DNA of 64,000 nt, taken from NCBI GenBank assembly GCA_014871385.1, contig CM026426.1:67169692-67233691 (forward strand). Reading direction: 5' to 3'. The notes beneath the pieces are model-generated. The model had not been told where the DNA came from and did no database searches. It saw only the letters and a list, made by a program, of their open reading frames with translations. Positions 1 to 18,510 of the stretch are shown one piece after another. Position 1 is the stretch's first letter; each line of letters starts with the position of its first letter. The DNA is from Ceratodon purpureus. Taxonomy: Eukaryota; Streptophyta; Bryopsida; Pseudoditrichales; Ditrichaceae. The position numbers and the translations under genes are program-made.

Positions 1-234
1 AGATGAGATGGTATCATGGGAGAGGTTGTCGTCCTCTGAAGATGATTTAAAGTATTCATATTTACAGACTATTTCTAGGAGTGTTTTGAGTATAATTTTA
101 AAATGAGAGGAATCAAAATAATATAAAATGGTCGACGTTTATTGTTTAATTAATATATTAAAATGTCTATAACTAGTAAATTTCAAGGTTCCGTGCGCTG
201 TAGTTTTGGACGTTTTGGTGGTTGATCTTCATCG

Positions 235-1215
235 TCAGGTTCTCTTGTCCGCTTCCGTATTGGGAACCCAGTCAAATCGTTTTCCCCAGATTGATCCGGT
301 TTGTCCACATCCAACTCGATCCAGCCAAATACCTTCATTATCTGCTTTCCATGCGCAATCTATACACTTGATAGGCATTGAAACGTGGTTTTGCAGAGGA
401 GGTGTCCATATTTTAATATCTCTACGATAAGCCATAGTCCCTAGGTCTTTAAAATTGCATATCCAAGTCGAACTCAGTAAATGTTCATCAGTGCGTCGAT
501 TTGAGGATATTCGAAAAAATCGTTCGGATATGTGTACTCGAAGGCGTCTTGGAATTTTCACAGTGTTCCTTGTGCCATCCACAACTCCAAATGTAAGCAT
601 TAATTCATCATCCAGATCATTAAAAATAGAGATCCTATACTCTGCGAGGTGTTCGTGGTGGTCCTCGTCCTCATTCCAATGTTGAAATAGCTTCTACTGA
701 TGTCTACCGCTAAAAGGATGGAACTGAGAAACATACAAACCATCTCGTTCAATATTCCATCGACACAAATATGTATCAGGGCTGGGACCTGGTTCATAGA
801 TTGGACAATTGTCATCGTTGAAATTTGTATATTCGTGCCGCATAAGACGAGCATTTGGATGCTCGCAGATGCACATGTAATCTATCTCATATTTTATGGC
901 ACAATTCCATTCGCGGATTTCGTATTCAAAATCACAAAACAAACTATCTTCAAAATCGAGAAGACCGCGGCCAACTTCGACAGATGCATGAGCTTTGATT
1001 TGATCAAATACGACGTTTTGCTTTTTTGGCACCCCATGATCATAGACCTTTTCGAAGCAATCTAGCCATACCTTCTTGTGAATATTATTTATAATTTCTA
1101 CTGGTGACAATACATTCTGTGGAGTTTCCTCATCAAATGATTGTACTTGTCGGAAAGTTGTCAAAATTAAGACATAGAATAGTAAAAAAGCGCATTTAAG
1201 TCTATGATCTTCCAT
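235..1215 (-). CDS. putative secreted protein gene with one in-frame stop
   Basis: One minus-strand frame runs from an ATG at 1215 to a stop at 235, broken only by a TAG at 694-696. The N-terminus (residues 1-27) looks like a signal peptide: a short charged start, then the hydrophobic stretch FLLFYVLILTTF, then a polar region ending near VQSFDEE. The mature part has scattered cysteines (WLDCF, LFCDF, WNCAI, YMCICEH, NCPIYE, YLCRW), and after the stop there are further ones (STWICNF, KCIDCAW, RVGCGQ), typical of an extracellular disulphide protein. I do not recognise the family. Similar Cys-rich style on both sides of the TAG suggests one gene of about 326 residues that has acquired a stop, or a missed splice event near it. 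Confidence 0.42.
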
Positions 1216-2134
1216 GCTATTAAGTAAATGTGAATTCTGATTGAATTCTAATAATTATTAGAAAAAATTTGAAGTTTACAAGGACAGCTATTTAATTCTT
1301 CAAATATTCTGAAAAGGTGTTGTGAATTCTGTCTATCCATCCATATCACTTATGATGACTTTTCAATAACAGTTATACTTTTGGAATATAGAAATAGTCA
1401 TAGTACAGCAGTTACTTATTCAAAAGATTCCTGGAACGAATACATAATTCATAACATAAATAGACGACGAGCTTGGTAGCTATGGACAATGAATTGAAAC
1501 TTGAAGTCCTTTAATTTATTAAAATAAAACTTGGAAGTCTGAGTTTGATACTTATTGCAGAGTTCTAGATTAGACTCAGATCGGATCGAATGAAAATCCC
1601 TAAAAACCTTATGAGACTTGGATGTGCATTCGTTTGTACTTAGGACATTGACTTCATTTTTTAAGGAAAGGGGAGCTTAAGTGTCGATGAGATAAGGTGA
1701 GCGGATTTGCATGAGAAACATGGAAACTTAAACACCTCGAAAGAGTTATAAGCACTTGCTAGGTTTGAAAACAAACGTACACAGTAGAATCACATAAGTA
1801 ATTCTTGTACCTACAATTAAAATCTACATTCAGTTGTTACAGAAAATAGTCTTTCAGAATAATTGTCTCCTAAAATCCTCAATGTATTAGTGCTCGCATG
1901 TATGAAGGTTTTGCGCAGAAAAAAACCAAGTACATAAAGGATTCAATGGACAATGCGGAAACCAGCTAAATCTTGAAGTGCTACGAAATTCAGGAAAGGA
2001 AATGAGAAAGCAGAACTATGGAATAAACTTATCCTCACTCTCTGAAGCACTGTTCAGAATGAAAGGGCAGAAACTAGGATTATATTTTCTGCAAGGACTA
2101 GATGAGGCACTCGAACTAGTGGAAGAAATCTGAG
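1216..2134. other. AT-rich intergenic stretch
   Basis: About 0.9 kb with no credible reading frame, domain or repeat. It separates the secreted-protein gene from the 3' end of the ParB-like/methyltransferase gene, both on the minus strand. I see nothing else in it. Confidence 0.5.
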
Positions 2135-2524
2135 CTAATTCTTCTGCCAAGCCTTTGATGTAGCAAGGAAGTCCATCAGTTCTGCTTGGTGAGCGGTACT
2201 CTCTCCAAAGACGTCTCAAATTTAGAGTTCGAGTGCAAAAACAATTTGACTTTTAGGTACCAAAAAAATTGTCAAGAGAATACTTAAGAACAGTAAATAA
2301 AGAATGATGAAAATGATAACGAACTTACTCACATAAATCTACGGCTTCCTCCTCTGGAAGGACTTCGTTATCCTCGGTAAGATCTATAACTTCGGATGGC
2401 GCAACCGCATGAGGCACTGCCGCGGTCCTCTGAAGAGGCTCCAGAACCTCCTTGAAAATGTGCTTGTCCCCTTCAAGTGCCACAATCGCCCTCCTTGTTG
2501 CCTGGGCGGCCAATACAGCAGCCC
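2135..2524 (-). CDS. exons 8 and 9: end of methyltransferase-like domain, copy 1
   Basis: Exon 8 (2524-2333) follows acceptor TACTTTCAG and completes motif I: after the join the protein reads DLSPGT, then R, then AAVLAAQATRRAIVALEGD, the typical post-motif-I helix and acidic strand end that binds S-adenosylmethionine ribose in this family. An acidic tail follows (SEVIDLTEDNEVLPEEEAVDL), which also resembles a SUMO-interaction motif (VIDLTED). Exon 9 (2214-2135) adds 26 residues (YVFGESTAHQAELMDFLATS...) and ends at TAG 2137-2135. The phase-1 junctions of exons 7/8 and 8/9 agree. Confidence 0.5.
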
Positions 2525-5500
2525 CTGAAAGTACAATCGAAGGAGTGTGAGATCACATAATACAGAGAGGGGGAAGCATGATAAAGTGTACAGAAAAAGT
2601 GCTTATCTATTTGTCAATTTCAGCCCTTTTGCAAAAACTGCACAAAAGTGATGGAAAGATGTAATTGAAGTCAATTTTTTTTGCTAATATAGATTCTCAA
2701 CTTCTTTTTGTACAACTCAGAAAAGTTTCATGCTAAGTAGACACTTTAAAGTTATTGTATGAGGGCTTCAAACCCAAGCAAAGTGGATGTAGATATTTGA
2801 AAAAGTGGCTATAAAAGAACAAAAAATTATCTAAAAATCACTTTTGATGAAGTGGGGCTCTCTGTATGTTTAAGAGGTATTCTAAAATAGGCAATTCATA
2901 TATTCATTATTTGATTTAGAATTCCAAAAGTATCGCAAGGATGTGTTTTAAGAGGGTCACTTCCGCAATACTTTTTGTCACTTTTTCTTCACTGAACATT
3001 GTTTTTTAAATTGGAAAAAACATCCTCTAAAGTCAATAGAGGGCCCGAAATGAAGAAATGAAGACATTGAAAAAGTTCATTTTCATGATTTAGAACTAGT
3101 GGCCAAATTAAGTTTCGATTGAAGATCTTTTCTTCCTGAAGATGTATACAAGATACCTTATGACACCTTAAAAAGTGACTAAAACACTCAAAAACCACAC
3201 CAAAATGCTCAAAATCAGATTTGAGCTTTGAAAAACAGCACACTTCATAATCACTTCCATTTGGTCACATCGGTCACTTTGTTGTACACTTTATCATGCT
3301 TCCCCCCAGAGGGAGTCAGTAAAGGAAAACTAAAAATATGTAATATAAACTTACGAGTTCCCGGGGAGAGGTCACAGATAATCCCATTTTCGGGAGTAAG
3401 TCCGCCAATAAGGAGCTCCATCAGGGCCTGAGACTTTTCTTTTGGACCTCTCCAAAGGAAGTCAGAATCCTTCCTCTTCAACGTGGATTCTTCAGTCACG
3501 ACATTAAAAAGAACATCATCCTTGGCAAGGTTGATTTTCGCAAATTGTGGCCCTGTGACAATGGTTAGGTCCTTCGGTTTCCTAGCCACGGGCTTGGTGA
3601 AGCTGCGCACTAATAAGACGGCCCTAAACATCAAAGTCTGCATTCACCACAAGGTTGTCAGTACACTTGCAATAGTAAAATAAGGTAAATAAAATAAACA
3701 TTGGTTTGTGGCGAATTTGGTAGGAAATTCATACCAATCGTGAAGGGTCCAAAGGGTGTATATGGTGGAGAGAGTTGACAATGATCCACTCTTTCTTTAC
3801 GGCCAGGTTGTTATTTTTGAGGAAGCTTCCCAAAACCTTCGTGATGTGGCTGCTGTCCGGAATAAAAAAGAGAAGAGCCCCATCATCGTGAAGGAAGCCT
3901 CGGGAAAAACCAACAGTCAGCTTAATGTAATCCTGCACCAACTCATTCCATAGAGGGACATGCTCCGGGAATTCAGAGACTCCAGGGACATACAACCCGT
4001 CCGGAAAGTCCGCAATCACCAAGTCCACTGCGGGTTTTTGATCAACCAATCCTAAAAAGTACATCTGCCGACTTGCTCCCACCTGTTGGAAAAAAATGAG
4101 TTAAAACCCGAAATGATGCAAATTTGAAATCACTGGATTATCAAGTTATGAACATAAAATAGAATGATTATTTAAAAGCTTACCTTGGTCAGAAATGCAA
4201 TCATGGCCTCAAAGGATGGTGGGTATTTGCCTCATTTGGACTTGTAATCCACCATCATGTGAAAAGCCTCATCTAGGATGAGAAGCTTTGTCGAGTGTCG
4301 GGTAGAGGATGCTGCCGCCGACATGGTCTTCATGGCTGGAGGAGTAAACTAGGAGGGAGCATCCTTAGAAGCAGTGCATGCTGGAGGCGCTTGTACTGTG
4401 GACGGGGAGGAGGAGAAGGATTGGGCTGAGTGACCCTGGGCTCGGTTTGTTGACCCTCGTTGCCTGCAGCGGTGTTTGCGGGAATGTCCTCCTCTACCTG
4501 CTCATCAACCGGGTCCTCTGCCTTCCGCTTTGCTCCCCTTCCTTTCCTCCCCCTGGAAGACGCCTTTCCCTTTGGAGAGCCTGCTGCTGCTTGCTGGTCC
4601 GTAGAATCCAAGGGCGCGGCCGCTGCCAGAGCTGGCTGAAGGGAATCTCGAAGTGCCACAGCAAAAGCCGGGCACTTCTTTGGGGGACAGTCTATGTACC
4701 ACCCACATCTTTCATAGTGAACTGGCTCCCAAGCCCTAAGCATCGCAGGCGTATACATACACTCCGAATTCGAAGTGTCAAGGTAGTTAGGAAAAAATGC
4801 CGGTACCTTTGAAATAGCCTTCCTCGGTAGGAGAACATACTTGAAGTACCTGTAGAGAACCGTGCGAACAGCTGGATGAAAATTTGGTTGCTGATCCGCG
4901 GTCTTGTTCTTATGAACCTGGTCTCCAGTGAATTCCCTAAAAAAAGCAGAGTCCCAGTGCTGACACCTCATGGCCTCAACATAATCAAAAATATGCTGAA
5001 TAGGATCCCCTTTGTCTCACGTATAGTTAACCTCCACTCCCAAGTCCAAAAGAACTCCCTTGAAGAGCTCCTCGACCTCCACGGCTAACTGAAACAAAAA
5101 TAAATACACAAACCAGAATATCAGTGAAAGATATATTCTAAGGTTCATGAATCTAATTCATGGACAGTGCCTTTTCCGGCACCTGCACGAGGGCCCCCTC
5201 TTCGGCACCCGCATGAGCCTGAGGCTTATGCGGAGACTGAAGAGGGGCCCCCCATGGCACTGCCGTTGACGGCAGTGCCAGTCGGTGGTGCCTCCAGCAC
5301 CCGCATGAGCCTCAGCCTCATGGGGGTGGATGAGCAGCAGAGAAGCTCTGCTGCTCCTCCACCGGCATGAGCCTGAGGCTCATGCGGGTGCGGAAGAGGG
5401 GGCCCCAAAGGCACTGCCGTCAACCGCAGTGCCAATGGAGGTGCCTCCAGCACCCGCATGAGCCTCGGGCTCATGCGAGTGAGGGAGCAGCAGAGTCAAT

Positions 5501-8421
5501 CTGCTGCTCACGCACCGGAATGAGCCCGAGGCTCATGCGGACGCCGAAGAGGGGGCCACGAAGGCTCTGCCGCCAACCGCTCATGAAGCATAAAATATAA
5601 TCTTAAAAAGAAGTGAGGAATACTTACTTGAGCCCACCAAGTGGCCTTATGGAGCCAAGGAGGGAATACAACGTCGGAGAAGTTAGGCTTGGGAAACTTA
5701 TAGGCATCGCGGATTGCTAGAGAAGAGTTCCACCTTTGGAGCCACTTGATCATCATGGGCGTGGGCATCGCCGAAGTTGCCAACATCCAGAGCTTCTCGT
5801 GTTGCATTTCAGGCTTATCAAATTTTCTGTAGTGTAGTTTTACCTCCTCAAGAAATGCCGCCGTGTGCTTTGGGTCTGCAAGCGGCAAATACTTCCGTAG
5901 CTCCCCAATAAGCTTGTCCTCCATTGCCTTAACTGCCTGGGCAACCCACTCGTCGGCCGACCGCTATGTCCATTGCTCAGGGTCGGGGTATTTGATCTGA
6001 AATCTCTCCTGAGCAGAATGTGCGGCTTCACCTAGCTCTTGGTGAATTTCTACAAGAATATGAAAGTTATTCATTCCGATAATAAGACAGAATTGAATCC
6101 ATTTGCATGGCCTGGTTTAAGGAGCGCATACCTGATAAAGAACCGAGCATAAGGCTTCAACGGAGAGTGTGTACCAGGTCCTCTTCTCCACGGCCTGTAT
6201 CTTCTTAGCTGCTTCCAGAACCGGCTGCGGTACTAGACCCTCAAAGTATGAGATTGGCTGAGGAGCTATGTTTTGGACGCGGTACAGTTTGTGGACAAGA
6301 TTAGTTGACACATGAGATTTCTAATTCCTCCTGTACATGTAGAAAATCCAGGTTATTAGCACACTCTAAAAAGAAGACAAATCATATCAAAGCTTAAAAA
6401 TTAAAGATCACTCACCAGTTAACTTTGTGTAACGCGGTCAAGGCGGAGGGTACGTCCCCTCTCGGATCGAGAATTATACTTTTCACACTGTAATGCCAGT
6501 TGATATCTCCCGAATGGTACGCCTCAATAATCGGCATCCACGCCTGCAACCTATGGTTACCATCCCAGACATGGTACATCTTGTTCGAAAACATCAGCAA
6601 GTCGTCATCTATGCGTAAGCTCTGCTCAAAGTCTTCATTAACCTCCTTCCATTCCTTGGACCAGGAGGCCTCAATTGCCGGGGTGACTTCTGCAGTGTGC
6701 CCATGGTTGTCTTCCAGGGCAACATAAAAATAGCCCTCCATGTAACCATCCCTAACGAAATGAGCAGCAAGGTTGTTCACATCATTCTTCAGGAATGGGG
6801 GCACAACCGGCAATGACACCATACGACAAAGAGGTATGAAGATTCGTCCCTTCGCCTTCCGCTGCCACTTCAATCTCTCCAGGCGTGCTGCCCTGTTGAC
6901 CGATTTCTTGTTCACAAGATCATACAACTTCTGCTTGAGGCCTCGGTCCGATAAGGGAACTGCAACAAGAAGTCCATTGAGGAAATTAGAACGCGCCCAT
7001 AACATGCACAACCCGAGAGCATAACATGTTACAAAAAAAAGTATAGGTGACTGTAGGCAATCCATTAGGCACTGCAAAAGCTGTGCCGTTAACGGCAGTG
7101 CTTTTCCAATGCCCAATGGATTGCCTACAGTCACCCTCGTCACTGAAGCTTCGGTGACGAAGCCGACCCTGAGCGATTCCTCAGGCACTGCAAAGGCAGT
7201 GCCCTTAACGGCACTGCTTTTGGAGTGCCAGAGGAATCGCTCAGGGTCCGATGGAGGCGTCCCAGGCTTCGGTGACGAAGGCGACCCTGAGCGATCTAGA
7301 AGGCACTGCAAAGGCAGTGCCGTTAACGGCACTGCTTTTGCAGTGCCTGAGAAATCGCTCATGGTCGCCTTCGTCACCGAAGCTTCGGTGACGAAGGCGA
7401 CCCTGAGCATTCTAGTGGCACTGCTGAAGCAATGCGGTTAACGGCACTGCTTTTGCAGTGCCACTGGAATGTCTCAGTGCCCATCCTAAGCACCAACCAT
7501 GTTAACAAGGTCGGTGCTGAGGTTTGGCGGTGAGACATTCCAGTGGCACTGGAAAAGCAGTGCCGTTAACGGCACTGCTTCAGCAGTGCCACTAGAATGT
7601 CTCACCACCCACTACCATGACCGATCCTTGTCAATAAGGATCAGTACCAAGGATGGGCAGTGAGCGTCACGAGTGGCACTGCAAAAGCAGTGCCGTTAAC
7701 GGCACTGCTTATGCAGTGCCTTCTGAATTGCTTACTGCCCATCCTTGGCACCGATCCTTGTCAACAGGGTTGGTGCCATGGACGGGGTGTGACCAATTCA
7801 TAAGGCACTGCTTTTGCAGTGCCTCTCGAGTTGCTCACTGCGCACCTTCTTCACCAAGCTTGTTGATCGAGCATGGTGTAGAAGGTGGGCCGTGAGTCAC
7901 TTTGGAGGCACTGCAAAAGCAGTGCCGTAAACGGCACTGCTTCAGCAGTGTCTTCCGGATGGTTCACAGCCCTCTCCACTGGAGCACCGATGGAGGAGGA
8001 GGGGTGCGAGAGAAGACGCGGAGGGTATGGGAGGGACTGCACAGGCAGTGCCGTTAACGGCATTGCCTGTGCAGTCCCTGCCATACCCTCCGTGTGCTTT
8101 CTCCGAGCCCTCCTCCATCGGTGCTGCGGTGGGAATGCTCCCTGGACAAGAAAGTGAGCCCCGCAAAGGCAGCGTGGTTAAGGGCACTGCCTTTGCGGTG
8201 CTCACTTTCTTGTCGGAGTACACTAATACCTCCGAGGTGGATTACGAGGGAGCGCATCAAATTGAATAAAACCCTAGAAGCTTACCTTGCGGTTGTGTGT
8301 CGGAGGTGTCGTGGCTCTCCTCTTGGAGATCCTCCGATGTTGGGATATGCTCTGGCAAGTTTTGCGTCTCCTAGAGTCCATCAGAGCGAGCTGCGGATTG
8401 AGCACCGGAATGGCTCGCCAT
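2135..8421 (-). CDS. ParB-like / DNA methyltransferase-like gene, copy 1 (whole locus)
   Basis: Nine minus-strand exons are supported by GT-AG junctions: 8421-8286, 6959-6416, about 6320-6132, 6050-5628, 5088-4184, 4082-3735, 3637-3355, 2524-2333 and 2214-2135. Domain order is N-terminal Ser/Gln-rich leader, ParB/sulfiredoxin-like domain with the WDGNHR signature, helical middle, basic NLS-like linker (KGKASSRGRKGRGAKRK), then an N6/N4 methylase-like fold with motif IV before motif I. Phases match at exon 1/2 and across exons 6-9. Exons 1, 4 and 5 each carry in-frame stops and exon 5 a frame slip, so this copy is probably a decaying gene. A colinear, diverged homologue lies at 58.3-63.4 kb. 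ParB plus N6/N4 methylase is a combination known from bacteria and phages. The protein would act on DNA in the nucleus; this is inference. Confidence 0.6.
3355..4082 (-). CDS. methyltransferase-like exons 6 and 7, copy 1
   Basis: Exon 6 (4082-3735, phase 0 both ends) contains AVDLVIADFPDGLYVPGV, which sits where N6/N4 DNA methylases have motif IV (usually DPPY or SPPY); here it is a degenerate DFPD. It is followed by the hydrophobic strand DDGALLFFIPDS and the helix SFLKNNNLAVKKEWIIVNSL. Exon 7 (3637-3355) ends with FLWRGPKEKSQALMELLIGG and GIICDLSPGT, matching the 'h-t-KP--ll--li' and 'vlDpFaGsGt' blocks (motifs X and I) of the PF01555-type family, in that family's order (IV before I). The intron cuts motif I after Thr. 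Both exons are open. The altered motif IV makes catalysis doubtful. Confidence 0.55.
4184..5088 (-). CDS. basic-linker exon 5, copy 1
   Basis: The exon starts after acceptor TTTGTTTCAG (AG at 5090-5089) and ends at donor CCAAG|GTAAGC. It begins LAVEVEELFKGVLLDLGVEV, continues through RYFKYVLLPRKAISKVPAFF and a Cys/Trp segment (HYERCGWYIDCPPKKCP), then an Ala/Gln-rich linker with a basic block (GRKGRGAKRK) likely to be a nuclear localisation signal. After a frame slip it closes with TKLLILDEAFHMMVDY and a segment leading into the methyltransferase exons. It carries at least two in-frame stops. The equivalent exon of copy 2 (61083-60369) has matching order but low identity. Confidence 0.45.
5160..5590. 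repeat. 154-bp palindromic tandem array inside intron 4/5 of copy 1
   Basis: About 2.8 tandem units of roughly 154 bp. Each unit has two dyad centres: one at GGCACTGCCGTTGACGGCAG (centres near 5267, 5421 and 5574), the other at GAGCAGCAGAGAAGCTCTGC (near 5341 and again near 5493). Between them lie mirrored blocks of CACCCGCATGAGCC and GGCTCATGCGGGTG. The array fills most of the 539-bp intron (5089-5627) between exons 4 and 5. Each strand could fold into long hairpins. Confidence 0.8.
5628..6320 (-). CDS. helical middle exons 3 and 4, copy 1
   Basis: Exon 3 (about 6320-6132; donor TATCAG|GTATGC) encodes a helical stretch containing PQPVLEAAKKIQAVEKRTWY. Exon 4 (6050-5628; acceptor TTCTTGTAG, donor CAA|GTAAGT) encodes EIHQELGEAAHSAQERFQIK and, near its end, a Trp-rich segment with WLQRWNSS and PPWLHKATWWAQ. 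The second copy has clear counterparts (KRRWYKMTCDAVSEVY at 61.9-62.0 kb; VLKLWNSTPEEKQKY and WLNRRAWWEQV at 61.4-61.6 kb), so these are conserved parts of the protein rather than chance frames. One stop lies in exon 4, and the 3/4 junction is one base out of phase as I read it. Function unknown; no family recognised. Confidence 0.5.
6416..6959 (-). CDS. ParB-like domain exon, copy 1
   Basis: This exon (acceptor TTGTTGCAG at 6960; donor GTGAGT at 6415) codes for a domain resembling the ParB/sulfiredoxin N-terminal fold. The first strand and loop appear as RIFIPLCRMVSLPVVPPF, corresponding to the 'I-pl--l-p' start of ParB domains. The nucleotide-pocket/catalytic loop is YHVWDGNHRLQAWMPII, matching the family pattern 'v-dGnhRl-A'. 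The final strand is WHYSVKSIILDP. A basic stretch (LERLKWQRKAKGR) precedes the domain. In bacteria the fold is a CTPase switch or nuclease; the Gly-Asn-His-Arg residues are retained here. No following ParB helix-turn-helix is evident, so centromere-type DNA binding is not assured. The exon is fully open. Confidence 0.6.
7040..8225. repeat. ten-unit train of nested palindromes in intron 1 of copy 1
   Basis: The core is GGCACTGC-AAAA-GCAGTGCC, then GTTAAC, then GGCACTGC-TTTT-GCAGTGCC: each arm is a small palindrome and the whole is a larger one. Centres fall near 7090, 7206, 7324, 7439, 7567, 7697, 7929, 8055 and 8179, spaced 115-130 bp, with a half-unit (one arm only) near 7812 that keeps the register. 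Flanks are also mirrored, for example CTGTAGGCAATCCATT against AATGGATTGCCTACAG, and spacers are themselves palindromic (GTCACYGAAGCTTCGGTGAC). The intron runs from 8285 to 6960, so the array makes up nearly all of it. Confidence 0.85.
8286..8421 (-). CDS. exon 1 of ParB-like/methyltransferase gene copy 1
   Basis: The ATG at 8421-8419 opens a polar leader (MASHSGAQSAARSDG, later PEHIPTSEDLQEESHDTSD). The exon is 136 nt long, ends in phase 1 and stops at a clean donor (CAAG|GTAAGC, GT at 8285-8284). The next exon starts in the matching phase, which supports the join. One TAG interrupts the frame about midway, where CAG would give Gln. The composition is that of a disordered tail. The 1.3-kb intron that follows holds the nested-palindrome array. 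Confidence 0.45.
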
Positions 8422-8835
8422 ATCCTAGAGATTGCGAGGACCAAGTTAGACAGAGTGAGGGGCTTCACCTTGAAAAAAAAAAACGGAGCTTCACCAAAAA
8501 TAGACCGATAGAAGGAGTTACTGAAACAAGAGGTGGGCGTAGCGAAGGCTAGGACCGAGAGGAGAGAAAAGAGGGTTTGGTTAATCGTAAGGAGAAGGGG
8601 TCGGGTGGAGAATTAGGGCACACAGTTTTAGCGAGCCTAGTTAAGTGATGGACATAATGAGAGGCTATGGACTGAAATTAGGGTATTGATTGCTGCTTAG
8701 AGTATTGGGACTTAACCCTGATAATTGCAACGGGAAAGCTAAAGAGGTTGAAAATCCGTGGAAGTCTCATATAAAAAATAATGACGGAATGAACAGTGAA
8801 GGGACTCTCAAACGATCTCAAAATTAAATCATACC

Positions 8836-9109
8836 TTCCTTTCTTGGCCTCGCATTTGCTGGGAATCCGAACTCTTACTGTTTTCCTTCCTTCCTCGCCT
8901 TCCATACTGCTTTGGAGTATCTTCTGTGAGAGCACCTAGCGCTTCCTCCACCTCCGTTCCAAAATTTAAAACTTTCTGTAATCCGGTAGTCTCTAAGCCC
9001 TCAGTCGTCATCTTTCTAGTTCTCATCATCCGACTATTCCTTAAAGACTTTGCACTACTAAATAACAAACCTCTCCTTCTTCTCTTCTTCTTAGTCGGAG
9101 CCTGCATAT
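8836..9109 (-). CDS. basic exon of an unrecognised minus-strand gene
   Basis: A minus-strand frame ends at a donor (GGAAG|GTATGATT) near 8836 and contains a very basic block, APTKKKRRRRGLLF, typical of a nuclear localisation signal, followed by a Glu-containing helix (VLNFGTEVEEALGALTED) and a polar Arg/Ser tail. The same frame extends upstream to about 9250 (LAICKSMSKTYCLPSSPRLN) across a single TAG. It may be a 5' exon of another gene or an upstream part of the ParB-like locus. No family recognised. Confidence 0.3.
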
Positions 9110-9655
9110 CAAGACCCTAATCCGCAAAACATCTAGCCAGATTGCAAACGCTAACTTCGACATAAGGATGATTGAGTCTCGGGGAGGAAGGGAGACAATA
9201 AGTCTTAGACATACTTTTGCAAATTGCAAGAGGAGCCTCCAAATTAAAACCAGTGTTCCTTGAAGCCAGTGCACTCAGAAAATTTTAAGCAGTACCATCA
9301 TTATCATTAATGCAAAATCTGATACCAGGAGTTGATATTTATCTTTCAAATGACCTCTCAATCTAAAACAATACAGATACCCATCAAAACGAATTAAGCC
9401 CACGATGAAGATTTTATTAATCCGTTAAATTTACATCTTAGCACCCACGACCTAATTGAAACTGACGGCTTCTTAATTCATTGACATCACTAATTCATTC
9501 CCCTTTACATCTAAACTGAAAGCATATTGTGCTAATGAACTAACGAATGAATCCTGCACATCTAATAAGTAGAACACATGTAATGCACTAATCTTCTCAA
9601 CCTCTTTTCACTAATTCGTGTCGTCTCATTCCAATCTTCCAACACACTGCCGCGA
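9110..9655. other. spacer before the MULE-like transposase
   Basis: Roughly 0.5 kb of AT-rich DNA with several short repeats of CTAATTCATT-like words. It would hold the promoter of the plus-strand transposase gene, but I cannot point to a clear TATA box or terminal inverted repeat. Confidence 0.35.
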
Positions 9656-12600
9656 ATGGCGCATCTCTCTGTAGACAGAGTGTTAGGCATGGCCGTCCTC
9701 AGAGCTCATGGTGTTGGGATTCCACTTACAGTGAGGGTAGATGAGGATGGCTTGGCAACTGTTACGGCGCAGCGCCTTAGCCTGAGGTTTCACTTTAGAG
9801 AGGAGAGTATTAGTTTAGAGGAGGAGATTTATGATGATGAGACCAATGAGATCACACACACTCTGGATCAGGTTTCAGAGAAAGACGATGACGATAACAT
9901 GTTGTGGAACCTCTATCTCGGTAGATACAGAGTTTATGGTCTTACAGAGTCTCAGATACAGGCGTCGGCTGAGATTCTAACTCCTCGTCGATCATCTACT
10001 ATTCAGACTCCTCTGCCATGCGATGTAAAGGTCAAATTAGAGCCAGGACTGGATACTCCGGATGTACCTCCAGTCATCTCCCTTTCTTCAGACGAGGAGA
10101 CAAGTCCGCTGAAAGCAGCACCTGGGGTTCCAAAACAGACTATAGAATCTAGAATGCCATTGGATTTCCCAGTCAAGAGCTCCAATACCTCACAATCTTC
10201 AAAGGACGAGACTGCCAGTGTCATCCCTCTCATTCGGAGTCTTGCGGAGAGACCACGCAGAAGTAACATTTTGAAAAGAATAGATTTCTCCTTGGTGAGA
10301 CACGAGAAGGTTGAGTATTTACCTGCTGTGTTCGACGACAACGTGATCTTTGAGCTCCCTCCTGTTGGTGATGGAGCTTCCAGGACGCAAGCGAAGGCAA
10401 TGCAGGGAATGGACAAGCGTTACGATGGACATGTATGGACCAAGACAATCACAACCAACATCGCTAACGATTTCCGCCTCGCTTTCCGCTACTCCAGCTG
10501 CGTTGGTTGGCTGCGCTGCAACAACCAGGACTGTGCATTCCGCAACCGTCGACCGCGAATTGTTGAGGTAAAGGAGACCGAGTTTGACGGATGTACCCTA
10601 CAACCACTTCAGGTAGCTCAGCCTCCACCAGCTGATTCATCAATTGTCTGCAAGGTATGTAAAGAGCCTCCTGCATGTATTGCTACATGTGGAGCGAAAG
10701 TTTATTACGTGATTGGGAAACCCAACCAGAGCAAGGCATGTATCCATATCGGAACACATGATCACCCAGTCAAGGTTGGGGACTATAGGGATACAAAGGC
10801 GGAGATTGGGAGCCTAATAGAAGAGCAAGTGGAGATGAATTCCAAGGCTACCAAGAGCGCTGTTGTCTTGGAGGCAGGTAAGGTTCTGATCGTCAGCTAT
10901 CTCCTTCAGCCAGAGGACTCATCACCGAAGAAGCTGAGCATGGAGGAGCTCATCCCGGTCCTGGATCGCTCCAAAGACATGGCATCCCAGAACATCTGCA
11001 ACAAAGTTATGACGTTTCGGCGACTCAGAAGGTACGGTGTTATGGACGCAATCACTAAACTCCGTGGAATCAGTCTGTGGGCGTTTGTCCAAGAGAAAAA
11101 GTTCCCGGGTGAGGGGGCCGAACGGGAAAAAGTTTTTGTGTTCAAGATGTCCGAAGTTGGTCCTGGGACTAGTGTCGACTTGGTATGTCAGATGCAAGCT
11201 GGCGGAGACCTTGAAAACGCATGGATTATGTTTGACCACGTGAAAAGTGTGACGAAATGGTCAACTATGGCTTGCCATGTGTACAACGCCACATACTGCC
11301 GAGTGATGACAATCCCCAGCTGCGACATGCAATCCGAGGATACCGAAGCCCAGCTCGTCTTCTGGAAGAACCTGAATCTCGTCATGAACTGGAACGGCCT
11401 TGAAGCACCAAATTTCAAGGGCTTTATGGCCGACAATGCGCAGGCGAACTAGAATGCTGTGAGGATTATCTACGGCAATGGCAACAAAGAGGACCGAATG
11501 GAGGATCGAGAGAGGTCCTGCCTCTTCCATTGGACTAAGAGCATGCTACAGTATACAGTGAAGTACTTCCATGAAGAACTCCGAGAGCAGCACAAGAAGA
11601 TGTGTAACCAGTACAAGGCAGCTCAGAGTTTGACAGAGGCGAAAACTCTGTACCACGCGTTGCGAGCCTGGTGGGTATGGACCGGGCTTTTGGGCGAGGT
11701 GGCTCTGACCAAACTGGATCAGTGGTTGGCTTATTGGCACCACCGCTACCGCCAGTGGGGAGGATTCATGTCTGGGGTAAGTTATCCCTAGAACTGTGAT
11801 ACGTTCCTTTCATTCCTTATCTTATCACCCTACTCAGAAGAACTTATATCTATGGCTGTCAAGGAAGGCCCTTGAATATCAACGAGGGCACTGTAAAAGT
11901 AGTGCCGTTAACGGCATTGCATTTGTAGTGCCGTCGCATTCGCTCGGGGGCCCCTCACAAAACCATCCTAGATGCTATCCTTTAGTTTCAATGAAGGCCA
12001 TCGAGTGTCAGCGAAGGCGCTGCAAAAGGGGTGCCGTTAACGGCACTGCTTTTTCAATGCCCTAGTTTGCACTTGGGGGCCCCTCACTAAACTATCCTGG
12101 AATATATACTTTAGTGTCAGCGAAGGCCGTCGAGTGTCACCGAAGGGGCTGCAAAAGGAGTGCCGTTAACGGCAGTGCTTTTGTAGTGCCCTCGTCTTCC
12201 CTGGAAGCCCTCACTTAACTATCTTTGAATCTAACTAATTCCTTTGTCTAAACTGCAGAAATTCACGGAAGAAGAACTTACAGAGATGCCCACCTGCAAC
12301 CTCACTGAAACCGTTCACAACAAGTGGCTCCAAGCTTCGGGGAACAACGGCAGCGATCTCTACGTTGCCACCGTCGACGATTATGTTCGGGCATTTCTAC
12401 AGGTTGTTAACTCTTACCTGTTTCTGAAGGGTGAGCTGGGCGGAACACGTCCAACGAAGAAAGAACTGAAGCTTAGGATGGCGGAGCGCAGAGCAAAAAT
12501 TACAGGAAATCCTGCGCTGCTCGAAGATCCCATGCTGGACATGCCTGGAGCAGATGAGTTTTGCACCCGTGAACCTGTCACGCCTGGAGCAAAAGTATTT

Positions 12601-13773
12601 GGATCACAGAAGCGGATGGCCGAAGTACCCATCGGAGCTGAGGAGGAGTCACATCGGCCCGACATGGTTAACTTTTCGCGTCCAAGAGGTCCCGGACGCG
12701 CCGTCAGACCCCGCCTTGTGCAGATGCCCGTGATTGTGGAAGACGATTCTGAACATGACGTTGAGGTAGAAGAGGACCAATCACCCGCACCGAAAGCTCC
12801 TTCACCCTTAGCGTCACAGGAGAATGAAGCAGGCATACGTCATGTCAACGTGGTTGAAGAAACGAAGGTCAATGAGAGAGAGTGGCACATTTCCAGGCTT
12901 CCCAAAACTTCTGCTAAGTGCTGTTGGGCCCAGAGAGCTGTTACGAAAAAAAAATGTACCGAGAAAATAGTGAGGGGCCCAAACTTCACTGCTGCACCAA
13001 CCTACACTAGAGTTTGGACTAACTATCGCAGGAACATAACTGAGAGGACGGACTTCTTCTTCTGCTCCGATGATATTGAGCGCTGCGTGAAAGGCTCTAA
13101 GCGCAAATGGGTAGCACACTACTCGAAGGACCAGGAATTGCCCTCCATTTCAGAGGTCTCGCCAGTGAAACTAGGTACTCACCTAAAGCTCACTGAGATT
13201 CTTGCTCTCGAAGCAGCAGGGTTTCAACTTCCGCAGAAGAAGCCGGTCTCCCCAAGACGCCTCTTCCCCTCTGCCCCGCCCCCTAAAAATCTCAGTTCGG
13301 TGCCAGTTCCTGCAGACGCTGATCGTTATCCTGGTAGGAGAGATGGCAAGATGGTGAAGCGCACTACCACTCGCCCCAATACGGCGCAGCGACTCTCCAT
13401 GGGCTCCTCCGAGTCCCTCAAAGCTCGTCTCCGTTCCGTCACCATGATACCTGAGCCGGGCCATGGTTGCATCATTCAGCTGGATTCGGGCATTGCTCCC
13501 AACATCACACGTTACCATATCACCATCAGCTCTTGCCCTAGCTGCACTTGCCCTGCATTCAGGAAGACGATGACTACTTTTTGAGGCAGGGTTCAGTTCA
13601 TGTACTGTAAGCACATATATCACATCCTCTTGAAGGTCTGCAACCGTGATCCTGAAGCCGAGCTTTTCATCCATGCGCCTACCTTTAGTTTCAACGAAGT
13701 CAAGCTAGTCCGAGAGAGTGGAGTCCTGACTCACCTCTCGGCCAAAAGACAAGAGGCTGGAAACTTTGGATGA
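9656..13773 (+). pseudogene. MULE-like transposase with C-terminal SWIM zinc finger
   Basis: Two exons (9656-11776 and 12259-13773) are joined in phase by GGG|GTAAGT and AACTGCAG. The N-terminus is acidic and serine-rich (VISLSSDEETSP). A zinc-finger-like part follows (LRCNNQDCAFRNR, VCKVCKEPPACIATC). The transposase core reads TKWSTMACHVYNATYCRVMT, IPSCDMQSEDTEAQLVFWKN and PNFKGFMADNAQAN, the Asp-centred blocks of the MULE/RNase H-type fold. The C-terminal SWIM finger is SSCPSCTCPAF ... MYCKHIYHILLKVCN (CxCx(n)CxH). Two in-frame stops remain, at 11450-11452 (a TAG where related proteins have Trp) and 13582-13584, so it is probably inactive but recently decayed. SWIM fingers are common in plant MuDR/FAR1-type transposases. 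Confidence 0.68.
11777..12258 (+). repeat. transposase intron carrying three GTTAAC palindromes
   Basis: The 482-bp intron holds three copies of the GGCACTGC/GTTAAC palindrome, centred near 11910, 12039 and 12168, exactly 129 bp apart. Each copy has the form CTGCAAAAG-GTGCCGTTAACGGCA-TGCTTTT. The repeat unit also contains a mirrored GGGGCCCCTCAC block and TCACCGAAGG-like words. It is the same palindrome family as in the introns of the neighbouring ParB-like gene, on the opposite strand and in an unrelated gene. Confidence 0.8.
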
Positions 13774-14029
13774 CAGGCATTCACATCGCGGACAGTAGTT
13801 AATGTGGATGCTTAGTCACTGGTGATTGAATTTTTCCTTGTACTGAGTCAGCAATACAATTTTCGTATTGCCTATTTCAATATGAAGGTTTTGTCAATCA
13901 CATTTACTTCATTGTGTAAGAGTAGCATTTGCTTTGGACATCGGGCCTACTTACATTGTCTCACCTAACAGTTCAAGTGTACTAGTGCCATCTTTACAAA
14001 TTATTAGCCACTTCATTCTTTCAACTTAC

Positions 14030-14477
14030 CGCATTTAGACATTCCCCTTGCATTTTCAGCGGAATTAGAAACCTCCGGCTGTACTACAGGACAAGCAACA
14101 TTGACGTTCACTGTTTGTTCCTCACTTCGAGATCGTCGTAAGTGGGGACGTTTTGACAGTGGACGCGCTTCACTCTTTCTACCCAATGCTTCCCTAGAAT
14201 AAGTCCCTGGTGGAATCTTCCCAACCTTGGAGTATGCATGATTTGAGAAGGGCACGACCGGCTCCCTCTCAACTACTACAGTACAGCTTGGCTCCTCTAC
14301 AACCTTTGGTCCCCCTATGAGGTCTAATCCTACATTGACCGCAACGTTTCCTGAATGCCCTTCACTGCCACCTTCCGCCTCATCTTCCCCCTCAACCTCC
14401 ACATATGGTTGAAATGGGCCAACGACATCACCAAGTGAGATAGCAGTTTCTCCGACATCTTCCATACCCAAAAACAT
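14030..14477 (-). CDS. uncharacterised exon with acidic and basic blocks
   Basis: An open minus-strand frame begins MFLGMEDVGETAISLGDVVG and ends at a donor (AATGCG|GTAAGT). It has an acidic segment (EVEGEDEAEGGSEG) and a basic Arg/Ser segment (RPLSKRPHLRRSRSEEQ). No domain is recognised. It lies tail-to-tail with the MULE-like transposase. The second exon, if any, would be to the left, where I find only the transposase on the other strand; it may be a chance frame. Confidence 0.28.
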
Positions 14478-14745
14478 GCTCTACTTGGGAGTCGCTCAAA
14501 AAAGAGAATGCACAAAGAAGAAGAGACCTTCTACTGCCACTACCTAAATATCCATGAACTCAGACGTTGGCGCCTTTGAAACGGGGACCGTATAATGATA
14601 AATGAATTTCATCCTTTCAAAGTTGGTCTGTCTAGGACCTTTAGGACTATTCAAATTGATTTGAAGACGGAACTAAAAAATTAGAAATAGAGGGGGAACA
14701 AGCTAAAGGCCTAACTTGAAAAGTTTTAGTTTAAAATTTTTTAAA

Positions 14746-14754
<9 letters not shown>

Positions 14755-14790
<36 letters not shown>
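14755..14790. repeat. 36-bp adenine tract
   Basis: A run of A preceded by short TTTAAAATTTAAATTTAA words. It could be the poly(A) tail of an old retroposed sequence on the plus strand, or a plain microsatellite; no coding sequence of a LINE is visible upstream. Confidence 0.6.
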
Positions 14791-14793
<3 letters not shown>

Positions 14794-17600
14794 ACAGAAT
14801 GGTACAAAAGAAATCTGAAGAAAAAGCTACTCAAAGTGGGTGTGTGTACACCGAGCGCAAAGAAGGATTTCAATGGAGAATTTGAAATGGAAAAAATAGA
14901 GTAAATAGAAAATGAGTAAAGAATAATTAAGAAGAAAATGAACAAAGTAATCAGAGAGTACATTGGCACACGAATTAGAAGATAGCAGGGAGGAATAGAA
15001 TGGATAGATAAATCAGGAATTGACAAGATTATTAGAATGGAAGAAGATGGAAAGCGAAACAAATTCAAATAATTACCGCAATAAGTAATATGTTGAATGT
15101 CATATACATGAGATTGGAAGAGATGTATGAATTTGAAGAAAATGACATAAAATTCAGTAATTTAATTAAGGACCTTACAAAATATAGGATTAGTACAGGA
15201 ACAAAGCGGGAAGGTAGTACATTTTTAATATAAAAACCTTGTTCAGTCCACGGTTATAGGGTATGAAAAAATTCCTGAATCTATTAATATTCTAAGAATA
15301 TTCTCAGAATATTCTTGGAATGTTCGAATATTCTAAATTTATATTCGACTTTCAGTCAAAAAGTTACTTTTTTAAAGATTTTGGACCCAATTTACAGCTC
15401 GCCGCTCTCCAAATCTCCGCTCGCCGCTCGCAGCACGCATACAAGTCTCCCTCCGGGAGACATGACCCTACCTACAGACACGACTTGTCAAATTGACTCT
15501 ACGTACAGGCACACCTTTTAGAAATTAAGGCATAACTAGGAATTAAGAAAGAAGAATGAATTACTTCACCACACTACACAACATTGTGTGAGTGATAGTC
15601 ACATTATGTAAAAAATATAAAAATAGAATTCTATTGTCTAATTGATTGTCAACTTGACTCTGAGTAGCTCACTATATAATTAATTCACAATGCTCTTTGT
15701 CAAATTGAAATTATAGCTTTGATGCACAGTGTATTAATCTGCAGAACTGTAGAATCAGAATGGAGACTCACTGGAGCACATTGGCTACTGTCTAATTGAC
15801 AATTGAATTCAGATTACTTGCTGCATAATGTCTAGTTATCACTGGTCAAATGGACAAGATGGTGGTTCGGTATGCATCCATGTGCATGCATACATTGTCA
15901 GCTTGACTTGCATGGACCATGTCTAATTGACACAGTGGAGAGTTAGTGAGAGTTACAGTGAATGTGGTGACTCACACTGGATATTGTCTATTTGAAAATG
16001 AAGATGCTGATGGAGCAGAGTGAACAGTGGGTGAGATTGTCTATTTGAACTCAGAACAAAGGAAGAGTTACTGAGTGAATAGAAAATAGAAATTATAGAA
16101 AATAAACACAACAGTTTGTCCAATTGACATTGCATTGTTGTGAATGAGAATTATGGAAGAGTAAGAATTCCAGGGGATTACTGGAACAATGAATTGAGTA
16201 TTACTTGATAGTCTTTTGAATTAGATTGGCCATCTGAAATGGAAGACTGAAAATGACTTAGAGTTTATGGAAGATAGATTGAGTACATTGATGGATAAAA
16301 GTGGCATTAATTATTAAAGAGTGATCAACCTCAGTGATTATTAGTTCTCATTATAATAAAACTTGAATGTATTCAATTGGGAAATAGTGTAGTCATTGTA
16401 ATTGAGTAATACAATTGAGAAGCATAGTTGTGATGAATGGTAGACTTGGAGTATGATTGAATGTGAACGAGTAGACAGTGATTACATGTCTAATTGAAAT
16501 GCGATGGATGGGAGGAAAAAGATGAAGACAAGCAAGGAGTTGCTTGAGATAAGTTAATCTATCATAACATATCCCAAAGCATTATTCATAGGCATAAATA
16601 GGTTGAACACTAGATTCTAACCTAGTAATGAATGAACTTACATATGCATAATAAATGCATTGTCTAATTGAACTTGGAAGGGAGTGATGGCAATAAACCG
16701 AGAGATGGTACTTGTCAAATTGAACTCCCATTACCCTTGAACCAATTGAGAGTATGGATTACTTGGGTGGTATGTGACTTGGGGTAATTAAGTCATTAGA
16801 GTTATAAAGAGATTCTTTTAAGGAAATACTTTGCATTCTATAATTCTTTACTTACTACAGTGACCTTTAGTTACGTTAAAAGCTAAATGAAAAGACCTAT
16901 TCCCGTGACTTACCACTATTTGTAAATTTTACCAATTACATACAAGATAAACAAGAGTATTGTAATCATTTGTCAAAACAACCCCGCATATCTCATCAAG
17001 TTTGAACCAAGGGAGTCAATTGCAATGGCAATACACGAGAAAATGTCTCACATGATTTCCTAATTGAATTGCAATACCTTGGAAATCAAAATTGATAAAA
17101 TGTATCGCCAAAATTGTCAAAAAACTCTAAGTTTTCATAAGATCACCAAACATTGTTAACCCTTAATTGCCACAGCGGACCAATATGGTCCTCGATGGAG
17201 CCTTTTGCTGCTTTTGATCTCAACGGTGGCGTTTTTTGAGATTTTATCCGATGTAGTTGATTGTTTTTGAAAAGGGTACGTAACCAAGTTACCTCAACAT
17301 TCACCGTTTTGGATTTCCAAAATTATTTTATTATATATGCAGAAATATGGCAAAAAGCCAATGAAGTTGCATTTTTCTCCAAAACAAGGATGTCAATTAA
17401 GGGTTATAAGTATAAATTCAACCAATCTGCTTACATGAATTTTGATGCAGCTAGCAATGTACCGCAAAACTAAGGTATAATGGAATCAACTTTAGGATCC
17501 AAGGCAGCATCTAAGACGACTTATAAAGTCACCAAACCACAGTAAAATTACCATACCTAAAAGGTACATGCACTTAATATTGATTTGAAAAGCATCAAAC
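14791..17600. repeat. AT-rich DNA with dispersed TGTCTAATTGA motif
   Basis: No gene is seen. Between about 15487 and 16725 the motif TTGTC(T/A)AATTGA(C) recurs about 13 times on the plus strand (for example near 15487, 15636, 15698, 15785, 15921, 15987, 16040, 16115, 16488, 16661 and 16711), usually 50-100 bp apart. The full form TGTCAATTGACA would be palindromic. Dispersed copies in one orientation resemble the subterminal repeats of a non-autonomous DNA transposon, but I could not find matching terminal inverted repeats. Confidence 0.5.
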
Positions 17601-17609
17601 TGTAAGATG

Positions 17610-18510
17610 AATTTCTAATTAAAACATCTTTCCAATCAATTAGATGATTTTCAAATGTTCAACTTTGATGGGGATGTCAAAAGTTCTGAAGTAGAAATCA
17701 TGTGTTGGATCCGACAAACGATTTTTCAATGTTTAGTTTCTATAGGGATGCCAAAATAATTGTAGTAAACATCATCTGTGGGATCTAACAGATGATTTTT
17801 CAATATTCAATATCCATAAAGATGTGAAATTGTTTGTTGTAAAAATTATCTATCGGATCTGACAGATGATTTTTTAATGTTCAGTTTCTATGGGGTAGTG
17901 AAAATAAGATGTGTTGAAATTCATGTGTCGGATCAGACAGTTGATATTTTAGTGTTCAATTTCTAAAAGGAAGTAAAAATGTTTGTAGTAAAAAATAAGT
18001 GTCAGATCCAACAAACGATTTTTTAGAGTTGGGTTTCCAAGGGATTGTGAAAATAATTTTAGTGAAAATCATTTGTCGGATCCAATAGATCCTTTTCCAT
18101 CTCTTATGTCAGTTAGGTACCATGCCATTTTTCATTCATTTGTACAATTTGCAATTAAAATGCCCTAAAATGTGCTTCATCATATAAAATGCCGTCAATA
18201 TTCAAGAGAATGGTTGAAAAGAATAAGGCTCGGCAAATTTGGACGTTGCAAAAATCATCTGTCAAATTCAAAAAATGATTTTCACACCACTATCTTTCAT
18301 TGAACTATGGAAATTGAACTTTAAAAAATCATCTATCGAATCCGGCAGATGATTTTTCATCAAAAGATTTCTATATGGCTGTGAAAAAACCATAGATAAA
18401 ATTTCACATGTCGGATCCAATAGATGCTTTTTTATTCACAATTTTACATGGGGATGTGGAAACTTTTGTAGTAAAAATCATTTGCCGGTTTAGAGAAACA
18501 ATTTTTTCTA
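17610..18510. repeat. ~75-bp tandem array with GGATCC-centred palindrome
   Basis: About ten diverged units, 70-80 bp apart in the best part (cores near 17712, 17785, 17857, 17926, 18006 and 18082, then 18262, 18340, 18410 and 18488). The consensus core is ATCATCTGTCGGATCC followed by its mirror GGATCCGACAGATGAT, then a spacer like TCAATGTTCAGTTTCTATGG. Units differ at many positions, so the array is old. Confidence 0.75.

Follow-up and report, generated by a model that had tools for sequence, protein, structure and literature searches.

Transposons that carry silencing-related proteins are a known kind of mobile element. The VANDAL elements of Arabidopsis are DNA transposons with a transposase, accessory genes and tandem repeats in their own introns; the targets of VANC are often tandem repeats, which in VANC21 and VANB21 lie in introns and at VANA21 lie upstream of the gene (PMC5735166, in extract). 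These repeats vary between related elements (extracts of PMC5735166 and PMC10398659), and the VANC domains are DUF1985 and DUF287 (PMC5735166). Fungal DNA transposons carry TET/JBP dioxygenases, and an escape from silencing through this enzyme on the DNA-methylation layer has been proposed (PMC12730594, in extract). Here, the known kind is extended by a new protein type. In a 64,000-nucleotide stretch of the moss Ceratodon purpureus (the window, C6:67169692-67233691), a gene coding for a ParB-like and an N6/N4 methylase-like domain sits within a terminal-inverted-repeat (TIR) DNA transposon whose introns hold arrays of palindromes.

Like the VANDAL elements, the moss element combines a putative transposase with accessory genes and subfamily-variable tandem repeats in its own introns. 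Unlike them, it carries a methylase-like domain, its repeats are palindromic, and its anti-silencing role is a putative one. The fungal TET/JBP transposons differ in enzyme, transposon superfamilies and hosts (PMC12730594). The N4CMT of bdelloid rotifers is, like the moss gene, a permuted bacterial N6_N4_MTase with introns in a eukaryote, but it is described as an allelic gene pair fused to a chromodomain and not as a transposon gene (PMC8885841, in extract). No transposon with a ParB-methylase gene appeared in listings of open-licence PMC papers, a search that left Repbase, bioRxiv and most subscription papers outside. The window element is a dead copy of a ~17-kb TIR transposon; tentatively, we read its ParB-like/methylase-like protein as a VANC-like self-recognition or anti-silencing factor.

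A gene within a terminal-inverted-repeat transposon

The genome that was scanned comprises 362 Mb in 151 contigs, and contig C6, which contains the window, measures 110.5 Mb. The U and V chromosomes of C. purpureus exceed 100 Mb each and make up about 30% of the 360-Mb genome (PMC8000587, in extract), and C6 is probably a sex chromosome. The element occupies window positions 1-15453 (no strand assigned). The left end falls outside the window, 1,409 bases ahead of its first base, which gives the element a total of 16,862 bp. A copy of 17,008 bp on contig C9 is collinear with it, and the similarity ends at the inverted repeats on both sides. The right TIR (15419-15453, minus strand) has a 22-bp perfect match to the left end. 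Allowing two mismatches, the terminal pattern matched 96 places genome-wide, and the reversed control none. Immediately outside the right TIR lies one copy of a 10-bp target-site duplication (CGGGAGACAT, 15454-15463, plus strand); the left copy, CAGGAGACAT, is outside the window. The two copies are identical at nine of ten positions here and at all ten in the C9 copy. Duplications of 9-10 bp were present in nine of ten further elements read at both ends, the remaining one having none. In 90 mismatched flank pairs, which served as control, the mean agreement over 10 bp was 2.8 and the highest 9. Two insertions, at C2:3154930 and C7:9004658, have nine target bases in common (GACATGAAG), perhaps a target preference.

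Pairing of facing ends within 45 kb gave 37 two-ended elements. Among the matches listed, at least 14 of these hold a ParB-like exon, a methylase exon and the putative transposase, and 16 keep the ParB-like exon with no methylase or transposase match. Twelve of the 16 derivatives measure 8.8-11 kb, with both ends retained (for example C7:9004658-9014005).

The ParB-like exon (exon 2) gave 1,830 candidate matches. The best 150, the window's own included, are 58-100% identical and spread over C1 to C13 and three other contigs, with 74 on C6. For methylase exon 6, the best 150 of 1,697 candidate matches were scored; for the transposase piece, 116 of 2,279 candidates were scored. Of the 150 ParB-like matches listed, 107 are followed on their own strand by a methylase match no more than 12 kb downstream, 56 have a transposase match upstream on the other strand, and 48 have both neighbours. 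The wrong-orientation controls for the three counts, among the same matches, were 1, 1 and 1. The fixed orientation of the methylase gene and the putative transposase was counted in favour of an accessory gene carried by the element.

In the C9 copy, the gene consists of nine exons and eight introns, all of them GT-AG, and joining the exons yields 1,085 codons, one of them an internal stop. Eight divergent copies share the splice dinucleotides at many of these positions, some being blurred by alignment edges. The window exons were located by alignment of the C9 exons, in which exon 7 comes out one base short and exon 9 begins six bases in. All lie on the minus strand: exon 1 (8286-8421, stop within), exon 2 with the WDGNHR domain (6416-6959, motif at 6550-6567), exon 3 (6132-6330, stop within), exon 4 (5628-6041, stop within, preceded by CAC as opposed to CAG in the C9 copy), exon 5 with the central region and the nuclear localization signal (NLS)-like KGRGAKRKAE (4184-5087, stops and frameshift within), exon 6 with the place of methylase motif IV (3735-4082, DFPD at 3999-4010), exon 7 with the place of motif X and the start of motif I (3355-3637, RGPKEK at 3434-3451), exon 8 with the remainder of motif I and beyond (2329-2524, by alignment to the C9 copy) and exon 9 with the stop codon (2016-2226, 5' edge approximate). 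The KRK of the NLS-like stretch is kept in the window copy and all eight divergent copies, and KRKA in the window copy and seven of the eight.

The original prediction, made from the letters of the window, had described a nine-exon gene at 2135-8421 with an NLS-like linker and had suggested ancient capture. The spliced nine-exon structure is borne out by comparison with the C9 copy and the NLS-like stretch by its conservation; the start at 8421 stands, whereas the gene reaches 2016 at its other end. The at least 150 genome matches of exon 2, the window's own included, speak for more than a chance pattern. The view of a single captured host gene is not supported, nor is that of a working gene at this locus. 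The window copy contains six in-frame stops (exons 1, 3, 4 and 5) and one frameshift (exon 5); it is dead, a pseudogene of what is an accessory gene in a high-copy DNA transposon. Given these lesions, together with stops and an Asp-to-Asn change in the transposase, nothing is likely to work at the window locus. Copies more intact than this one exist elsewhere in the genome.

Pairwise ratios of nonsynonymous to synonymous substitution (dN/dS) show purifying selection on the ParB-like exon. The median dN/dS of exon 2 is 0.024 for ten autosomal copies (36 pairs after the dS filter) and 0.111 for 13 C6 copies (77 pairs), and exons 2-3 of a second clade of the gene give 0.046 (12 copies, 52 pairs), the pairs being non-independent throughout. 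Methylase exons 6 and 7 gave 0.093 and 0.092, each from the single pair that survived the dS filter. The copies on the putative sex chromosome have the higher dN/dS, and stops occur in exon 2 of 3/13 of them as compared to 0/10 autosomal ones.

Palindrome arrays in the introns

Two of the three arrays of the window element lie in the methylase gene, in intron 1 (7045-8110, core TGCCGTTAACGGCA) and, as palindrome-bearing repeats, in intron 4 (5206-5580). The putative transposase gene has the third in its intron (11857-12233), with a period of ~129 bp. None has an assigned strand. With up to two mismatches, TGCCGTTAACGGCA occurs 13 times in the window, always within the element and never in an exon. 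The C9 copy has 21 core matches, distributed over introns 1, 4 and 5 and the transposase intron.

From 30 sources we collected 313 palindrome units, 291 of them distinct; each had no more than three mismatches to the 14-bp core, so that conservation of the core is partly built in. The eight positions flanking the core, which played no part in the picking, carry 1.31 bits each, compared to 0.30 beyond the inner 46 bp. The units are mostly spaced at 106-108 or 127-129 bp. At 45 of 53 positions the agreement between left and right arms exceeds that in every one of 200 shuffles, a figure that overstates independence because units within an array are related.

Two forms of the palindrome were searched genome-wide. 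The 22-mer GCAGTGCCGTTAACGGCACTGC occurs at 240 places (control 0), and all 50 places listed, on C1-C3, fall within two-ended elements. A second form, GTACTGCCGTTAACGGCAGTAC, in which the core is kept with other arms, occurs at 564 places (control 0). By inspection, 45 of the 50 listed have a ParB-like or methylase match no more than 5 kb away, four lie about 10.5-11 kb from a transposase match and one stands alone. One copy (L044) carries a further variant, CGCCGGTACCGGCG. Four copies (L045, L046, L050 and L051) have no more than two core matches; the copies L044 to L051 were covered without intron 1. Four truncated elements (L032, L033, L036 and L037), for which no methylase or transposase is matched among the matches listed, keep 11 palindrome units each.

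The two protein domains and competing readings

The arrays lie in introns, vary between subfamilies and are kept in the four truncated copies, and in these respects they resemble the targets of VANC. We infer that the natural candidate for the reader of the arrays is the element's own protein, which combines a GNHR domain and a methylase fold with an NLS-like stretch. Its N-terminal or central part would bind the element's own palindromes. The methylase-like part would mark DNA or, in the window's clade with its altered motif, might serve as a binding or cofactor-sensing module. Related copies would thereby be kept expressed or mobile, as by VANC for VANDAL elements. If this is true, a bacterial-type amino-methylase fold would join the small set of proteins that are carried by transposons and seem to act on silencing, and the element would be a candidate source of DNA marks other than 5-methylcytosine within plant mobile DNA. 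The case is also a warning that domains of bacterial appearance, when met in a large plant sex chromosome, may belong to the cargo of a transposon and not to host genes.

Several results weigh against this self-recognition reading. The covariation of the outer arms is not required by a fixed binding site, and hairpins or correction within arrays would give the same pattern. In the region of the second clade that was read most fully (L052, L005 and L053), no such array accompanies the gene, indicating that the protein can exist without the array. The identity of the transposase is putative. A ParB domain was not matched in Pfam (PF02195), NCBIfam, PHROGs or PDB. Since F SopB and P1 ParB themselves have no PF02195 match, 13 phage ParB domains were used as the yardstick, with phage phiH left out of the alignment. 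In hhalign comparison with these, GNHR was placed on the phage motif at a probability of 2.6 percent; 2 of 300 column shuffles scored as well with the wider moss alignment and 3 of 100 with the smaller one. Single-sequence structure models reached a predicted local distance difference test score (pLDDT) of 39.7 (AlphaFold2) and 40.7, too poor for a fold search.

It is conceivable, if somewhat doubtful, that the WDGNHR domain is unrelated to ParB and that its GNHR motif arose by chance, as the missing database matches and the low hhalign probability would allow. On the other hand, the best profile alignment does set GNHR on the phage ParB motif, and shuffles as high as this are few. One of nine members has a weak match (E=0.11) to DndB, which we take to be a domain of the same kind as ParB. 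The sequence VWDGNHRLQAW is invariant in nine of nine aligned copies of the window's clade. Among 15 further copies from other clades, WEGNHR is found in two, CDGNHR in one and WNGNHQ in one. The ParB reading is kept mainly because the order from N- to C-terminus equals that of phage proteins with ParB_N followed by N6_N4_Mtase, a common kind found, for example, in Wolbachia phage WO and Streptococcus phages. Both moss and phage proteins start with a GHxR/GNHR domain that precedes a permuted methylase. The phage fusions differ in having DPPY at motif IV, no introns and no transposon, one gene being split into two annotated frames; by inspection, GNHR is preceded in the moss domain by a long stretch that is absent from the phage domains. 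In the Wolbachia phage protein itself, ParB_N is matched at E=8.9e-5, which is under the cut-off, and in a Streptococcus phage relative at 8.8e-11. Among 50,697 phage records, 610 match the Wolbachia fusion at E<=1e-10, and in 312 of these the match covers at least 80% of the fusion's length. With the ParB-like exon, a tblastn search of the phage records gave no match, and no relatives were confirmed in IMG/VR contigs (two profiles) or GTDB genome contigs (one protein). The ParB assignment thus stays at the level of a motif: the conserved WDGNHR of the original prediction holds, as does its place ahead of the methylase part, whereas the ParB fold found no support from the PF02195 profile.

The N6/N4-type methylase domain is, as profile comparison indicates, real, and here the original prediction proved right, including the permuted order IV - X - I, which is present in the window-type gene. 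PHROGs returned a DNA methyltransferase (7.1e-7). A profile of ten copies (alignment A2) matched DpnA (5hek) at 3.7e-8 and CcrM at 1.6e-4. PF01555 was matched by nine of the ten A2 members at E<=1, with 1.4e-9 as the best value; the window copy alone scored 21.7 bits, under the 26.7 cut-off. Nine phage proteins were found through a ParB-methylase fusion; with their methylase parts, hhalign aligned 195 columns at 94% probability and a score of 57, as compared to a best score of 24 in 60 column shuffles.

In this family, the catalytic motif IV has the consensus (D/N/S)PP(Y/F/W), of which DPPY is one form. The window copy, with DFPD, does not match it. The phage DPPY aligns with DFPD in the window's clade and with DQPF in the second moss clade, for which 55 matches are listed at 67% identity or more, some being pieces of one copy. 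Motif IV reads [DE][FYL][PL]DG in all seven A2 members of the window's clade and also in L046 and L048, outside A2. The second clade has an aromatic residue there (DQPF, DQPY or DTPF in the six copies where it was read). At motif I of the A2 members, the window's clade has DLxxG[TS]G (7/7) and the DQPF clade DLxASTG (3/3). This contrast is not clean, because ASTG is also present in L046, a member of the window's clade that was omitted from A2 as a curb on redundancy. With motif IV altered in one clade and motif I in the other, the pair might allow enzyme to be told from pseudo-enzyme. The second-clade region of L052, L005 and L053 has the same gene and a head-to-head gene whose start is weakly transposase-like (E=0.025), so the design may be older than the window's clade.

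A DNA-marking role, as the original prediction had proposed, may be possible for the protein. One rival to the self-recognition reading goes further and holds that it is a working amino-methyltransferase, which places N6-methyladenine or N4-methylcytosine on element or host DNA and so protects the element or times transposition. The homology over the full domain to permuted phage enzymes, the aromatic motif IV of the second clade and the low dN/dS would all fit. The altered motif IV of the window's clade and the ASTG at the motif I glycines of the DQPF clade do not, and we consider this rival unlikely. For the window's clade, where DFPD replaces DPPY at the catalytic motif, binding without methylation appears at least as likely.

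Hairpin-driven growth of the repeats is a fair rival, in which the arrays would be hairpin minisatellites that expand by themselves, with no protein to bind them, and the accessory protein serves transposition in the manner of maize mudrB, which is apparently required for integration (PMC6446971, in extract). Palindromy that spans whole units, compensating changes in the arms and the regular spacings argue for it. The same 14-bp core, however, recurs in separate arrays with different spacers and in two genes, and has other arms in another subfamily. As a complete account we judge this, too, to be improbable, and about as much so as the working enzyme.

ParB binds parS. A more specific version of self-recognition would be a ParB-parS-like system of a plant transposon, in which the protein reads the intron palindromes and labels copies, truncated ones included, as self, so that silencing is turned off or the transposase is loaded; one clade would methylate and the other would be a pure reader. 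We give this version still less weight. That a bacterial or phage gene was anciently captured and now serves the plant, for which the phage-like domain order, the introns and the NLS-like stretch could be cited, is highly improbable in view of the very many copies, the TIRs and target-site duplication around the gene and the decay of the window copy, and for that copy host-gene capture is largely ruled out by TIRs, duplications and copy number.

The putative transposase and other genes

The putative transposase gene diverges from the methylase gene and has two exons on the plus strand, at 9656-11776 (one stop) and 12259-13773 (one stop before the final one, and a SWIM-like CxC...CxH near the end). 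We presume it to be of the DDE type; the window copy has its Asp-to-Asn change at a possible catalytic place. SWIM (PF04434) was matched at E=0.39 and 10.8 bits, under the 19.6 cut-off.

In its long target-site duplication, the element resembles Mutator-like elements (MULEs), for which a range of 8-11 bp is given (PMC6446971, in extract). Duplications of 9-10 bp, TIRs and extra genes are shared with MULEs, as the SWIM-like C-terminus may be, a SWIM zinc finger being common in MULEs but not universal, and both the duplication length and the TIRs are those by which MULEs are recognized. Unlike MULEs, the moss element has no match to the MULE transposase PF10551 (C9 copy). Ten MULE domains from this genome showed no similarity to it in profile comparison, where 89 of 100 shuffles equalled or exceeded the hhalign score of a two-sequence profile. 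Of the 93 PF10551 places, not one is as close as 20 kb to any of the 116 transposase places among the matches listed. The KDZ transposase PF18758 gave no match, as was also the case in the control genomes. Neither a canonical MULE nor a canonical KDZ transposase was matched, the KDZ test having an empty control.

A third gene of the element (235-1215, minus strand) is broken in the window; in the C9 copy it has an open frame of 353 codons, lies at element positions 1616-2674 and has a hydrophobic N-terminus. Its similarity to plant self-incompatibility S1 proteins is very weak (E=0.017, under the cut-off). Near the left end of the C9 element, a 132-codon open frame (745-1140, plus strand) has no Pfam match. 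Outside the element, at window positions 17700-18425, a second palindrome array is centred on GGATCC (ATCTGTCGGATCCGACAGAT). With up to five mismatches, this sequence occurs at 7 places as compared to 0-1 in five shuffles.

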